Shown piece by piece: positions 18,952 through 24,409 of a stretch of DNA of 64,000 bases (position 1 is the stretch's first letter; each line of letters begins with the position of its first letter). Where the stretch lies: NCBI RefSeq assembly GCF_000243155.2, contig NC_018017.1, positions 1,116,001 to 1,180,000 of the forward strand, read 5' to 3'. The DNA comes from Desulfitobacterium dehalogenans ATCC 51507. Its GTDB lineage: Bacteria > Bacillota > Desulfitobacteriia > Desulfitobacteriales > Desulfitobacteriaceae. A program made the translations under genes and the position numbers. Below the pieces are notes generated by a model. The model saw nothing but the letters and a program-made list of their open reading frames with translations, was not told the DNA's origin and did no database searches.

Positions 18952-19084
18952 TTAGCAAAATTTGAGTAACATTACAAACACAAATCATACCAAGTACATA
19001 GAAAAAGGGGAAATAGAGCAAACTCTTTGTTGAAGGATTATGCCGATGGAGAATGGATCATCCCATCGATAAGGAGTGAAGCCA

Positions 19085-20998
19085 ATGAGTGAAGCGGTTC
19101 TCGAGAAAATCGAAGGCCGAGTGAGTTATCACGATTCGGTAGAGGAGATGCTGGTCAGAATTCGCGAAGACGGAATGTCCAATGTCTTTGACCGCTATGA
19201 AGCCCAGGAAAAAATCCGCTGTAAATTTTGTTTGCAGGGTCTAAGTTGCCAGCAATGCTCTCAAGGTCCTTGCCGGATCAATGAAAAGGGGGAACAAGAT
19301 CGCGGGGTTTGCGGGATTGGTCCTGATGCCATGGCGATGCGGAAGCTGCTCTTGCAAAATATTATGGGAGCAGGTACATACAGTCATCATGCCTATGAAG
19401 CTTTTCGTACTTTGAAAGCTACCGGGGAAGGAAAAACACCCTTTAAGATTAAAGAGCCGGAGAAGCTTAAATGGATGTGTGAAAAATTAGGGATTGATAC
19501 CAATCAAGATATTAATAAGATGGCCATTCAATTGGCTGATTTATTGGAACATCAACAACAGATCGGAGTAGAAGAAAAAAACCTTATGGTGGAAGCTTTT
19601 GCGCCGAAAAAAAGGAAACAAGTATGGCGGGATTTAAATATTTACCCCGCGGGAACCGTTCATGAAGAGCAAAACTGTGTGGCAAGCTGTCTCACCAATG
19701 TGGACGGAAACTATGCCTCCCTTGCTTTAAAAGCACTGCGCTTAGGTCTGGCTACTATTTATAACTCACAAATTGGGCTGGAGATGGTTCAAGACATTCT
19801 CTTTGGCACTCCTCAACCTCATGAAGTGGATGTGGACCTAGGAATCATGTGTCCGGAACATATTAATATCGTCTTTAACGGACATCAACCCTGGATTGGC
19901 GCAGCAATGATTGAAAGAGCCCGCTCCTCTGATGTGCAGGAAAAGGCCAGGGCAGCGGGAGCTAAAGGCCTGCGTGTGGTGGGCTCCATCGAAACCGGAC
20001 AAGAGCTCCTGCAACGCTTTGAGATGGATGATGTTTTCGTGGGCCTGATGGGCAACTGGTTGACTATTGAGCCTCTGCTGGCCACAGGAACAGTGGATGT
20101 CTTAGCTATGGAAGAAAACTGCTCCCCTCCGGCTATCGATATGTATGCAGAGAAATACCAGGCCACCCTGGTCTCCATCAGCACCATCATCGATATTCCC
20201 GGCTTGCAGCATAAACTTCCTTATGATCCGTCCGAAACGGATAAAATTGTGGAAACTTTGATCGATTTAGCTATCGATAACTTCAAGAAAAGAAAAGGTA
20301 AAGTCACTCCTAAGGTTCCTCAGCATAAGACGAAAGCCATTGCCGGATTCTCCACAGAAGCTGTCCTCGGTGCCTTGGGGAACAAGCTGGATCCCTTGGT
20401 AGAAGTTATCGCTGCCGGTAAGATCAAAGGAGTTGTGGCTTTGGCCAACTGCTCTACCTTAAGGAATGGTCCCCAAGACTGGAATACGGTTAACCTGACG
20501 AAACAGCTGATCAAGAAGGACATCCTTGTAGTAGCCGGTGGATGTGGAAACCACGCTTTGGAAGTAGCCGGACTTTGTAATTTGGACTCCATTAAGGAAG
20601 CCGGTCCTGGGCTGCAAGAGATTTGCACTGCTTTAAAGATTCCTCCGGTTCTAAGCTTTGGAACCTGTACCGATACAGGACGAATCAGCATGTTGGTTAC
20701 CGCTCTGGCGGATCACCTGGATGTGGATATCCCCCAGCTTCCTATCGCTGTCACGGCTCCGGAGTGGATGGAGCAAAAGGCTACCATCGATGGTGTCTTT
20801 GCCGTAGCTTATGGAGCCTATACTCATCTTTCTCCCACACCATTTATAACGGGTGCTCCTCAATTAATTAAGCTCTTGACCGAGGATGTAGAAGGATTGA
20901 CCGGCGGAAAAGTGGCTGTAGGGGACGATCCCGTGGAAGTAGCCCAGGGTATTGAAGCTCATATTATGGCGAAACGAAAAGGGTTAGGTTTGCATTAG
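19085..20998 (+). CDS. CooS-like protein (CO dehydrogenase family) with altered active-site ligands, 637 aa
   Basis: The overall frame matches anaerobic CO dehydrogenase catalytic subunits. The B-cluster cysteines are present (C55, C58, C63, C76 in SCQQCSQGPCRI and the following CG). C-cluster ligands found are His267 (GHQP), Cys346 (ENCSPP), Cys456 (LANCST), Cys487 (GGCGNHAL) and Cys528 (GTCTDTGR), and the catalytic Lys565. However the segment that normally reads VVGICCTGNE here reads VVGSIETGQE (residues 298-307), so one C-cluster cysteine is missing. The D-cluster pair is also changed: C46 is kept, but its usual partner is Ser54, with an extra Cys49. Known CODH homologues lacking that cysteine (CooS-V of Carboxydothermus) hold an Fe-S-O hybrid cluster and do not oxidise CO; hydroxylamine is a slow substrate. 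The start at 19085 follows AAGGAG; an in-frame GTG nine bases upstream is less well placed. Confidence 0.85.
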   Translation: MSEAVLEKIEGRVSYHDSVEEMLVRIREDGMSNVFDRYEAQEKIRCKFCLQGLSCQQCSQGPCRINEKGEQDRGVCGIGPDAMAMRKLLLQNIMGAGTYSHHAYEAFRTLKATGEGKTPFKIKEPEKLKWMCEKLGIDTNQDINKMAIQLADLLEHQQQIGVEEKNLMVEAFAPKKRKQVWRDLNIYPAGTVHEEQNCVASCLTNVDGNYASLALKALRLGLATIYNSQIGLEMVQDILFGTPQPHEVDVDLGIMCPEHINIVFNGHQPWIGAAMIERARSSDVQEKARAAGAKGLRVVGSIETGQELLQRFEMDDVFVGLMGNWLTIEPLLATGTVDVLAMEENCSPPAIDMYAEKYQATLVSISTIIDIPGLQHKLPYDPSETDKIVETLIDLAIDNFKKRKGKVTPKVPQHKTKAIAGFSTEAVLGALGNKLDPLVEVIAAGKIKGVVALANCSTLRNGPQDWNTVNLTKQLIKKDILVVAGGCGNHALEVAGLCNLDSIKEAGPGLQEICTALKIPPVLSFGTCTDTGRISMLVTALADHLDVDIPQLPIAVTAPEWMEQKATIDGVFAVAYGAYTHLSPTPFITGAPQLIKLLTEDVEGLTGGKVAVGDDPVEVAQGIEAHIMAKRKGLGLH

Positions 20999-21164
20999 GA
21001 AGAAGGGTTAGGAGACGCCGGCCAAAAGGACCGGCGCTTCTTTTTTAAGTTTTTTTAGGTTGCTTAATCAACAGCAAAGGAAAGTCGAATGACTTTCTCG
21101 AATAATTAAAATCACCTGAGGAAGTATAGCTTTGAATCTAAATAGGAAGTTAAGGAGTATGTCC

Positions 21165-21884
21165 ATGAATTCTTGTACTGCTTGCCATAGTTGTGGATGT
21201 CATTCAGAAGGGCGATTCTGCGCTTCAAAGGTTCCTATATTTTCCATGCTTGCTGATGAACAGCTTGCGGTGATTACCGGCTTGATCACACGGCGACGTT
21301 ATAAAAAGGGTCAGGTCCTTTTTTTCGAAGGGGATGTATCAGATAAGTTCTACATCATTAATCACGGGAAAATTAAGACCTTTAAGCATACCAGGGAGGG
21401 TAAGGAACAAATCCTCTATATTCTTACTGAAGGCGATTTTATTGGTGACTTGAGCCTCCTGAAGAAGAGCGCATTTCAATATAATGCGGAGGCACTGGAG
21501 GATGTCGGTGTCTGTACTCTATCCAAAGATGATCTGGATAAAATCTTAAAAGAAAATCCAGAGATTTGTTTAAGAATCTTAGAAAGTGTCCATGATCGCC
21601 TTGTGGATCTTGAGAACTTAGTCCAGACCTTAAGCACCAAGGATGTGGAGGCAAGAATCGCCGGCCTGTTATTTAATTTCTCTAAGAATTTTGGCGAACA
21701 CAAAGACGGCAAAGTAATACTCAATATGGTCTTGACACGTGAGGAGATGGCTAATTTTATCGGAGTGACCCGAGAGACCATGAGTCGTAAGCTATCCGGT
21801 ATGCAGGATGAAGGAATCCTGGAACTCGTAGGAAATAAACGCATTATTATAAACAGGCTAAGAGATTTAGAAGAAATGATGTAA
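21165..21884 (+). CDS. Crp/Fnr-family regulator with Cys-rich N-terminus, 239 aa
   Basis: A cyclic-nucleotide-binding-type beta roll (RRRYKKGQVLFFEGDVSDKF to EGDFIGDLSLL) is followed by a long dimer helix and a C-terminal HTH, LTREEMANFIGVTRETMSRKL. The first 20 residues contain five cysteines and two histidines (CTACHSCGCHSEGRFC), suggesting an Fe-S or other redox-sensing cofactor as in FNR. The recognition helix carries the RE-x-x-x-R pattern of CRP, consistent with TGTGA half-sites such as the one at 18933. It lies 166 bp downstream of the CooS-like gene and probably senses the same stress. The start at 21165 has AAGGAG 7 nt upstream. Confidence 0.85.
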   Translation: MNSCTACHSCGCHSEGRFCASKVPIFSMLADEQLAVITGLITRRRYKKGQVLFFEGDVSDKFYIINHGKIKTFKHTREGKEQILYILTEGDFIGDLSLLKKSAFQYNAEALEDVGVCTLSKDDLDKILKENPEICLRILESVHDRLVDLENLVQTLSTKDVEARIAGLLFNFSKNFGEHKDGKVILNMVLTREEMANFIGVTRETMSRKLSGMQDEGILELVGNKRIIINRLRDLEEMM

Positions 21885-21925
21885 TCCAATGAATCTGAAG
21901 TCGAAAATAAGTGTTGAAATTGTGG

Positions 21926-21954
21926 TTGACAGCGGATTTTGCGAATTGTATACT
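21926..21954 (+). promoter_or_regulatory. Strong sigma-A promoter of the leader-peptide/MFS unit
   Basis: TTGACA, a 17-nt spacer and TATACT are nearly consensus. The predicted start is near 21961, about 58 nt before the leader peptide. Confidence 0.75.
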
Positions 21955-22018
21955 GAATACAGTTTCGCCTACATAGGAAAACTTGACTATTTGCACTGTC
22001 AGAAAGGAGGCCGTGACT

Positions 22019-22099
22019 ATGACTGTATCAATCATCCCAGCGAATGCTTATGTTAAAAATCCTGTAACTTCATCCTGCGGCCTGAGACTACCCATTTGA
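22019..22099 (+). CDS. Leader peptide (26 aa) upstream of MFS exporter
   Basis: ATG at 22019 stands 8 nt after a perfect AAAGGAGG. The predicted peptide is MTVSIIPANAYVKNPVTSSC followed by GLRLPI and a stop. The ribosome-binding region contains CCGTGACT (22011-22018), which is identical to the 3' arm of the downstream terminator-like hairpin. Ribosome position on this frame could therefore steer the alternative hairpins. Short coding leaders of this kind precede antibiotic-inducible resistance genes; the inducer here is unknown. Confidence 0.6.
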   Translation: MTVSIIPANAYVKNPVTSSCGLRLPI

Positions 22100-22136
22100 T
22101 CATTGTTTCTCATGAAAATTGAAAACGGATTAATGG

Positions 22137-22170
22137 AGTCACGGGCTAGATCCGTGACTTTACTTTTACT
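22137..22170 (+). terminator. Attenuator hairpin 1 in MFS leader
   Basis: AGTCACGG (22137-22144) pairs with CCGTGACT (22152-22159), followed by TTTACTTTTACT. The 5' arm can pair equally well with CCGTGACT at 22011-22018 in the leader-peptide ribosome site, giving mutually exclusive structures. Confidence 0.6.
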
Positions 22171-22180
22171 GTATTCAGCA

Positions 22181-22216
22181 AGCCACGGTATCTTCTATCA
22201 GGAGGAGTCCGTGGCT
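22181..22216 (+). promoter_or_regulatory. Attenuator hairpin 2 in MFS leader
   Basis: AGCCACGG (22181-22188) pairs with CCGTGGCT (22209-22216). The loop holds CAGGAGGAG. The arms differ from hairpin 1 at one position each, so cross-pairing between the two hairpins is possible. Confidence 0.55.
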
Positions 22217-22247
22217 TTGCGTATTTGATGGAAGAGAGAGAAGGAAG

Positions 22248-23501
22248 ATGTCAGTATTACGAACGATGCTTAATCCTTATCGAGGAATGCCCAAAGAAAT
22301 CTATGTCATTTTTATTGCCCGGATTATCAATGCTATCGGGGCTTTTGTAGGCCCGCTCATGACTATTATCATGACGCAAAGCATTGGGTTACCCGAGGGT
22401 AAAGCTGGTTTTTATCTCAGCCTCTCCGGGGGAGTCAGTCTAATGGCCGCTCTTTGCGGAGGGAAGCTTGTGGATCGCTTCGGAAGAAAAAGAATCATTC
22501 TTCTATTTTCAGGTTCGGCTGTTTTGGTTTTTTTTCGGATCGGGTTCATGGAGCCTTCTTTGGATATGATTCATCTTATTATATTAGCAGGTGCATTAAA
22601 CTCGACCACAAAACCTGCTTACGATTCATTGATTGCCGACCTTACGACTCCCGCCAATCGGAGCGGAGCCTATGCCCTGTCTTATATGGGCTGGAATATA
22701 GGTTTCGCCATTGGGCCTGTGTTAGGAGGATTTCTTTACCGGCACCACCTGCACTGGGTCTTTAGGGGAGAGAGTATGGCGATTTTTATGTCTCTGATCC
22801 TTATCGCTACCTTTATTAAAGAGACTCTGAATAAGGCTCATGAAGAGATTCAGGATGAAGAGCGTTATCTGGAGCGCAGGGTGGAAGGATCCATTTTCAA
22901 GGTTATTAGGCTGCGGCCTTTGCTCATTTTCTTTGCCTTGATTATGTTCGGTTATAATTTCACCTATTCCCAATGGTCGTTTATGCTGCCCATGCAGATC
23001 ATGAAGAATTACCCCGGCATAGGCTCACAGTACTTTGGGTTTCTAGCTGCCTTTAATGGTTTGATAGTCATCATCTTTACTCCGATTGTCACTCGGTTCG
23101 CCGGGCATCTATCCTATCTGCGCCGGGGAGTAATAGGTGGAATTCTCTATGCTGTTGGCTTTGGTATGATTGGAGCGCTGAACTCTCTGGAATTTTTATT
23201 CCTGTGGGCCTTTATATTTACCCTCGGCGAGGTCATTCTGGCCATTACGGTTGCTCCCTTTATTGCGGATAACACTCCTGCGTCCCACAGGGGGCGGATG
23301 ACTTCGACCATGGCTATTATTGCGGATTCCGGATATACCTTAGGCCCTCTGGGGATGGGGATAGCTTTGACCTATATCAGTATGGAAACAGGGTGGCTGG
23401 CCTTGGGGGTGTCAACGTTGATGTTCACCTTATTGATGAAATTATTGGAGCGCCGGGAAAAAACCATTGTTCAAAAAGCAATGAAGGCTATGGCAAAGTA
23501 G
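22248..23501 (+). CDS. MFS multidrug-type exporter, 417 aa
   Basis: Twelve membrane helices are readable. The loop 2-3 motif GGKLVDRFGRKRIILL (about residues 69-84) is the MFS signature A, and GWNIGFAIGPVLGGFL in helix 5 is the antiporter motif C of drug efflux MFS. The protein resembles MdtG/MdtH-type 12-helix exporters. Substrates cannot be read from sequence. The upstream leader peptide plus attenuator suggests expression is induced by a translation-affecting compound. A strong terminator follows. Confidence 0.88.
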   Translation: MSVLRTMLNPYRGMPKEIYVIFIARIINAIGAFVGPLMTIIMTQSIGLPEGKAGFYLSLSGGVSLMAALCGGKLVDRFGRKRIILLFSGSAVLVFFRIGFMEPSLDMIHLIILAGALNSTTKPAYDSLIADLTTPANRSGAYALSYMGWNIGFAIGPVLGGFLYRHHLHWVFRGESMAIFMSLILIATFIKETLNKAHEEIQDEERYLERRVEGSIFKVIRLRPLLIFFALIMFGYNFTYSQWSFMLPMQIMKNYPGIGSQYFGFLAAFNGLIVIIFTPIVTRFAGHLSYLRRGVIGGILYAVGFGMIGALNSLEFLFLWAFIFTLGEVILAITVAPFIADNTPASHRGRMTSTMAIIADSGYTLGPLGMGIALTYISMETGWLALGVSTLMFTLLMKLLERREKTIVQKAMKAMAK

Positions 23502-23520
23502 AAAATGATAGCTAAGCAGG

Positions 23521-23552
23521 AAAAACGCCAGAGATTCAAAGCTGGCGTTTTT
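23521..23552. terminator. Bidirectional terminator after MFS gene
   Basis: AAAAACGCCAG pairs with CTGGCGTTTTT (11 bp) across a 10-nt loop. It also serves the small minus-strand gene ending at 23563. Confidence 0.88.
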
Positions 23553-23562
23553 CTATAGGGAC

Positions 23563-23691
23563 TTAGGATTGCTCCAAGACGGTGGAATCTTTTTTCTTTT
23601 TCTCTTTTTGCTTGTCACTAGCGCTAAGGGATTCATATTTGGCACTGTTTCGTCCTTCGGTATGTTTTTGAATCTCGCCCGATCGTTTCAT
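23563..23691 (-). CDS. Small basic protein, 42 aa, unknown
   Basis: ATG at 23691 lies behind a perfect AGGAGGTATACC. The product begins MKRSGEIQKHTEGRNSAKYE and ends with a run DKQKEKKKKDSTVLEQS. It is highly charged with no hydrophobic core, so it is likely disordered or nucleic-acid-associated. I do not recognise it. Ribosome site, compact frame and downstream terminator argue that it is a real gene. Confidence 0.6.
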   Translation of the reverse strand: MKRSGEIQKHTEGRNSAKYESLSASDKQKEKKKKDSTVLEQS

Positions 23692-23884: not shown

Positions 23885-24372
23885 ATGATCATGAACTATG
23901 TTTTTCCGGCCATCATGGAGCGCAATACCCTGTCGGGCCGGTATATCGTTATTTTCCCAGATCTGCCGGACCCCATCTGCCAGGGGGAAACCCCGGAAGC
24001 CTCCGATCCTGTAAGCCGGAAAAAGCGGGAGGATGCCGAGGTCATTGTGCTGGAGGCTGATCCGCCTGTTTGAGGAGTATGGGCCCCCACAGCCCACCTT
24101 ACCAGATTGGCAAGCGCTTGCCAAACTGAGCTACACCCAAGGGATTATTCTACTGGGCGTCCCGGAGGAGGAACGGGCTTAGTTTATCGAAGAGCTGGAT
24201 CCGGAAAGTCTATCGACCCGGGAATTGCAAAAGGCGGTTCAAGAGCGGAACCGGGCTGCGGAAGAACGGGACAACCTGATAACCAAAGTGGAAGAGCTGA
24301 ATCAAGCAAGAGCCGGACATATAAAGTCTATAAAGATAAGATCGTTAATTTTTTGGCTGAGGGCTTAAAAAT
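23885..24372 (+). pseudogene. Decayed chimeric gene: HicB-like N-terminus and DUF3102-like fragment
   Basis: The first frame (23885-24073) starts MIMNYVFPAIMERNTLSGRY then IVIFPDLPDPICQGETPE, which is typical of a HicB antitoxin N-terminus. After a frame change, the frame near 24060-24180 reads LIRLFEEYGPPQPTLPDWQA and then SYTQGIILLGVPEEERA. That frame stops at TAG (24179-24181) and continues in phase as FIEELDPESLSTRELQKAVQ and ERNRAAEERDNLITKVEEL. The second part resembles DUF3102 proteins. A frameshift plus an in-frame stop indicate a dead remnant, perhaps of a mobile element. Confidence 0.6.
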
Positions 24373-24409
24373 AAAAATGTAATTAATAATAGGATAGAAC
24401 AGAATGAAA

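Follow-up and report, generated by a model that had tools for sequence, protein, structure and literature searches.

A leader preceding a putative MFS drug exporter gene of Desulfitobacterium dehalogenans is a likely ribosome-mediated transcription attenuator

The exporter locus and the parts of its leader

The stretch of Desulfitobacterium dehalogenans ATCC 51507 DNA analysed here (64,000 nucleotides, hereafter the window, in which positions are counted unless otherwise stated) belongs to a genome of 4.32 Mb in a single contig, the nearest named relatives of which are Desulfosporosinus and other Desulfitobacteriia. A gene for a CO dehydrogenase (Prismane/CODH family, 19076-20998) is followed by one for a Crp/Fnr-type regulator (21165-21884), directly downstream of which lies the leader of a gene encoding a 417-residue MFS transporter. 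This protein is likely to be a drug exporter, because its assignment to MFS_1 is accompanied by a resemblance to the Tet(A/B/C/D) family, its best neighbour in NCBIfam, and by structural neighbours in the PDB that include LmrP, NorA and EmrB; drugs are its presumed substrates, and a score of 61 bits, far under the NCBIfam cut-off of 475, led to rejection of its identification as a Tet(A)-type tetracycline exporter. Farther downstream, at 23885-24382, two consecutive short frames (62 and 91 residues) in different reading frames resemble one interrupted gene, and neither has a Pfam match.

The initial annotation had described a promoter, a 26-codon frame (the upstream frame, or uORF), a repeated octamer and two hairpins before the exporter gene, and all of these are present. 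The parts of the leader are as follows:

21926..21954, + strand: putative sigma-70 promoter TTGACA-17-TATACT, by consensus match (11 of 12 positions), a similar pair (10-11 of 12) being found at comparable distance in most orthologous leaders
22005..22018, + strand: segment S (strand 1), the Shine-Dalgarno sequence of the uORF (AAAGGAGG) with its spacer, AGGAGGCCGTGACT, which covaries with segment A; core pairing AGGCCGTG at 22008-22015
22019..22099, + strand: uORF of 26 codons, MTVSIIPANAYVKNPVTSSCGLRLPI, from the ATG at 22019 to the TGA ending at 22099
22076..22102, + strand: segment A (strand 2), late in the uORF, recognised by complementarity, covariation and folding; the core TGCGGCCT (22076-22083) pairs with S, and the extended segment CGGCCTGAGACTACCCATTTGATCA pairs with L
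22128..22148, + strand: segment L (strand 3), GATTAATGGAGTCACGGGCTA, the 5' arm of terminator T1 plus upstream and loop bases, putative antiterminator target of A
22135..22169, + strand: terminator T1 with a T-rich tail, by terminator search, its stem kept with compensatory changes; 5' arm AGTCACGG at 22137-22144, 3' arm (strand 4) CCGTGACT at 22152-22159
22181..22219, + strand: second hairpin T2, AGCCACGG ... CCGTGGCT TTG (hairpin 22181-22216)
22237..22245, + strand: ribosome site of the MFS gene, purine-rich around AGAAGGAAG, by sequence
22248..23501, + strand: MFS exporter gene (MFS_1, 417 residues), by family match

As judged from the sequence, the leader frame is translatable from its own ribosome site, and a predicted intrinsic terminator lies between this frame and the gene, T1 being the sole terminator-like site detected in 21700-22400. 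The pattern AGYCAYGG..CCRTGRCT occurs at three places in the whole genome, namely T1, T2 and one chance match within a coding region. The folding z of the window leader taken alone (-2.0) is weak evidence, and it is conservation that carries the case.

Distribution and conservation of the leader

Orthologues of the MFS gene were gathered from whole genomes and a species collection, and their upstream regions were read directly. Within the class, the leader lies directly upstream in 14 of 15 orthologues with at least 52% identity. Desulfitobacteriia, Tepidibacillus decaturensis and a genome with the label Calditrichales together have fifteen distinct complete leaders of this layout, and a contig end truncates one more. 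The leader is missing from the orthologues in Clostridium and Caloramator, some of which carry different ones. In the Caloramator orthologues L023 and L026, the different leader combines the Shine-Dalgarno sequence AAGGAAAGGGGTTTT with a hairpin around GATGGCTGTATCATC that resembles a terminator; it also has a 7-codon frame (MLEVVLN) in L023 and is possibly an independent attenuator. The hairpin GCCCACGAGATAGACTC..GACTATCTCATGGGC, a strong one, precedes a 32% identical MFS gene in L043 and has no sequence relationship to the present leader.

A covariance model covering S to T1 found one copy only in the genome of D. dehalogenans itself, and every strong match in 83 genomes of the class sits at this MFS gene. 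A search of 398 genomes of the phylum, together with the class of one match, yielded further leaders preceding one more MFS orthologue (L063), DrrA-like ABC exporters (L066, L080), MsbA/LmrA-like ABC exporters (L077, L078) and GNAT acetyltransferases (L067, L076, L081), the gene of L067 being assigned by its sequence similarity, by eye, to those of L076 and L081. Eight weak matches (L061, L062, L064, L065, L073-L075 and L079) were judged from context to be due to chance. A second copy of the leader in the genome of L025 (L071, G466:C8:119971-120182) precedes short frames and not an exporter gene; the 82-residue frame behind it has no Pfam match. A genome congeneric with that of L005 carries a remnant of the T1/T2 hairpins, GCCACGGAGCCGTGAGGTTTCCGTGGC (L060, 1501-1620; G005:C58:63807-63926), which has neither a uORF nor an MFS gene behind it and is probably the scar of a gene loss.

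The searches together gave 24 full leaders, which are not independent of one another, from about 16 lineages grouped by hand. They share a layout of strong promoter, S, a frame of 22-56 codons, A inside this frame (beginning at its codon 15 to 37), T1 and mostly also T2. The initial annotation had made its proposal depend on conservation of the frame and the hairpins, and this was borne out: T1 is conserved and T2 is present in most leaders, and the first in-frame stop lies past A in 24 of 24, a count that is partly by construction, unlike its contrast with the other two frames, which reach A without a stop in 0 and 5 of the 24. Wherever GGAGG is present, its spacing from the start codon is held at 8-9 nt.

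Conservation of the peptide, which was also to be checked, was not found: the leader peptides are unconserved except where segment A forces GLR or NDL, and CGLRLPI, the end of the window peptide, corresponds to the translation of the RNA of segment A (CTGCGGCCTGAGACTACCC). The congener L002 has lost one base ahead of A and gained one behind it, which changes CGLRLPI to AAWDYPI but leaves the RNA and the stop intact. Because this frameshift is compensated and the peptides are otherwise unconserved, selection appears from the sequences to act on the RNA and the open frame, not on an arrest peptide. An arrest-peptide attenuator of the erm/msr type was therefore rejected, the window peptide also having no R/K-X-R/K motif. 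Such motifs, known from macrolide stalling (PMC6851288), are present early in the peptides of L063, L066, L077 and L078, which are ABC- and MFS-linked leaders, and so the inducers may differ among members.

Alternative pairings and a proposed switch

S (AGGYCGT) is complementary to A (ACGRCCT), which is also complementary to L (often GGTCGT). S and A covary, GGYCGT/RCGRCC giving way to GGTAGGG/CCCTGCC, and in four ABC- or GNAT-linked leaders both strands are altered together (S, AGGTAGGG; A, CCCTGCCT). With S and A blocks hand-aligned around the complementarity, 94.8% of cells are paired among 22 distinct S:A pairs compared with 87.0% in shuffles (0 of 500 as high), 12 cells are doubly changed compared with 3.8 (0 of 500 as high), and slid controls are 20-52% paired. 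When both S/A types were placed in one alignment, A came out misaligned, and this alignment was left out of model building.

Contiguous complementarity, scored against dinucleotide shuffles and averaged by lineage (16 groups), gave t values of 6.9 for S:A and 4.6 for A:L, compared with 0.5 and 0.0 for controls early in the uORF. The contiguous A:L match is 13 bp in L025 and 12 bp in L010, and L038 has 10 bp of S:A and 9 bp of A:L; L011, L032 and L063 have little A:L, and in the window it spans no more than 6 bp (p = 0.34 by itself), the strength of A:L there being provided by a longer interrupted duplex. Thus, an antiterminator (A:L) and an anti-antiterminator (S:A) that exclude each other are predicted from sequence, the former being weak in a few members. 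Together with the conservation of the leader, these pairings support the initial annotation's view of a leader-peptide transcription attenuator with alternative stems before an exporter gene.

The transcript of each of the 24 leaders was folded at the decision point, ending before the 3' arm of T1, with a ribosome placed at set codons. Without a ribosome, a mean of 8.7 A:L pairs was expected; this rose to 13.3 and 13.6 for a ribosome on codon 1 and codon 3, respectively, returned to 8.5 for codon 8 and fell to 2.6 when the ribosome covered A. The same series for the window leader was 8.7, 14.5, 14.5, 10.2 and 1.6. Shuffled leader bodies gave 4.6 with no ribosome, 5.7 at codon 1 and 2.8 over A. 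When folding at equilibrium was carried through the complete T1, some leaders shifted in the expected direction, but T1 dominated and remained the favoured structure in most of them even when a ribosome occupied the start (mean 0.92 to 0.76); any switching would therefore need to take place co-transcriptionally.

The leader is accordingly read, with a probability of roughly 0.7, as a ribosome-mediated transcription attenuator that senses stalling near the start of its uORF, likely caused by drugs. In the proposed mechanism, the strands are the ribosome site of the uORF (S), A, the 5' half of T1 (L) and the 3' arm of T1, and T2 comes after them. On a ribosome-free leader, S would pair with A, T1 would form and the exporter gene would be off, the uORF being closed as well; during normal translation the ribosome would pass over A, which could then not pair, and T1 would again form. 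A ribosome held at or near the start of the uORF would mask S and leave A free to capture L ahead of the synthesis of the T1 3' arm, whereupon T1 would fail and the exporter would be transcribed. The signal would be the position of the ribosome, not the peptide, and the inducers are probably drugs that arrest ribosomes on the start codon or immediately past it (tetracyclines, pleuromutilins, lincosamides and similar), which the exporter may pump out. Induction is predicted for a stall at codons 1-3, and none for a stall at CGLRLPI.

The same RNA switch might instead respond to a general slowing of translation, such as shortage of amino acids or initiator tRNA or ribosome hibernation. The unconserved peptide agrees with this explanation, and the geometry of S:A would read any slowing near the start, but the downstream genes are for exporters and GNATs rather than biosynthesis, and no shared hungry codons were found among the peptides, so that a signal other than a drug appears unlikely.

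Less probable still is the mechanism of the initial annotation, in which a drug stalls the ribosome near the peptide end, at CGLRLPI, and pairing of the Shine-Dalgarno octamer CCGTGACT with the 5' arm of T1 decides the fold. The octamer repeat is real and rare: counting both strands, the 64 kb window contains three copies, all of them inside the leader (22011-22018, in the Shine-Dalgarno region; 22152-22159; and, as AGTCACGG, 22137-22144), compared with 0.54 expected, and 1 of 100 shuffles had a count as high. Its pairing with the 5' arm of T1 is strong in L001 and L003 (-18.2), but it is confined to close relatives, with a clear signal limited to the window and a single congener, and fails as a general rule, as S:L complementarity is not above chance across the 16 lineages (t = 1.3). 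The frameshifted and otherwise unconserved peptide end also argues against it, and according to the folding a ribosome held on CGLRLPI would cover A and favour T1, which is the opposite of induction. The initial annotation was thus most likely right about the kind of element and wrong about the deciding pairing and the position of the stall.

Equally improbable is a leader that binds a metabolite or a regulatory protein, the uORF being incidental. The conserved stems, with AGYCAYGG conserved in both T1 and T2, would suit a riboswitch or an RNA-binding regulator, but Rfam covariance models had no match in 21000-23600 at E up to 1, there is no aptamer-like conserved core beyond the Shine-Dalgarno sequence, A and the terminators, and both the spacing of the ribosome site and the frame are preserved. 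Least likely of all are unregulated tandem terminators that insulate the exporter gene, with a small frame present by chance, since despite the terminator-like T1 and the resemblance of T2 to it, a dedicated strong promoter is immediately upstream and S covaries with A.

For the drug-sensing attenuator, a further step may involve T2, which follows T1 in most leaders and is terminator-like in most relatives, mostly with a good T-tract; the T-tract is weak in the window, and L076 and L081 lack an evident complete T2 hairpin. Pairing is possible between the T1 3' arm and the T2 5' arm (-13.4 kcal/mol compared with about -5 in shuffles), and the opening of T1 may thereby help to open T2. Swapped partners pair as well as cognate ones, and therefore the complementarity may merely reflect two similar hairpins. 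A domino of this kind, as described for vmlR of Bacillus subtilis, where one refolding also opens a second hairpin (PMC9226507), is possible by analogy.

Related systems and implications

The general design of the leader is known, and this version of it was not found in the databases and papers searched, in which coverage of the literature was incomplete. The ermK gene is preceded by two terminators, with stems 1:2, 3:4 and 5:6 versus 2:3 and 4:5. The ermD/ermK class resembles the present leader in combining a leader peptide with transcription attenuation (PMC4335068), but has a macrolide-specific arrest peptide and a methylase gene. In the vmlR leader, a drug-held ribosome at the start of the uORF leads to readthrough through an anti-antiterminator (1:2), an antiterminator (2:3) and a terminator (3:4), whereas its uORF has 3 codons, its Shine-Dalgarno sequence is single-stranded, its second hairpin hides the Shine-Dalgarno sequence of vmlR instead of forming a tandem terminator, and the gene encodes an ABCF factor (PMC9226507). 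The cplR leader of Clostridioides difficile likewise has start-proximal stalling and an off-state hairpin that sequesters the uORF, and an anti-Shine-Dalgarno element has been discussed for it, but it has a 3-codon uORF (MRI), a terminator that also sequesters the Shine-Dalgarno sequence of the gene, and an ABCF gene (PMC10201436).

The bmrB-bmrCD system of B. subtilis shares a long leader frame (53 codons), with several inducers and three alternative stems, and a multidrug exporter under transcription attenuation; it differs in that the terminator lies within the leader frame, the exporter is of another gene family, and no involvement of the leader's own ribosome site in the stems has been demonstrated, unlike S here (PMC4191407). 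In toiL-topAI of Escherichia coli, one uORF senses several drug classes, tetracycline and retapamulin holding ribosomes at its start codon, but control is by Rho and translation with no intrinsic terminator switch, and the operon is a toxin-antitoxin one (PMC12121999). By analogy, tetracycline stalling at start codons would fit a Tet-like exporter, though it is no proof. Particular to the present leader are a first strand that is the uORF's own ribosome site with its partner inside the same frame, a peptide free to drift, and terminators usually in tandem.

It is possible, though rather less likely than the attenuator reading itself, that the leader is a movable, peptide-independent sensor module placed before unrelated genes of resistance type (for MFS and two types of ABC exporter, and for GNATs) in several bacterial classes, with domino-like tandem terminators. 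If so, readthrough would follow from arrest of a ribosome at the start by whatever drug. The proposed switch makes a clean prediction, namely opposite outcomes for a stall early in the frame and one late in it. The leader offers a peptide-independent signature by which drug-responsive leaders may be searched for, and which can point to uncharacterised resistance genes, such as those for exporters and GNATs, in little-known anaerobic Firmicutes.
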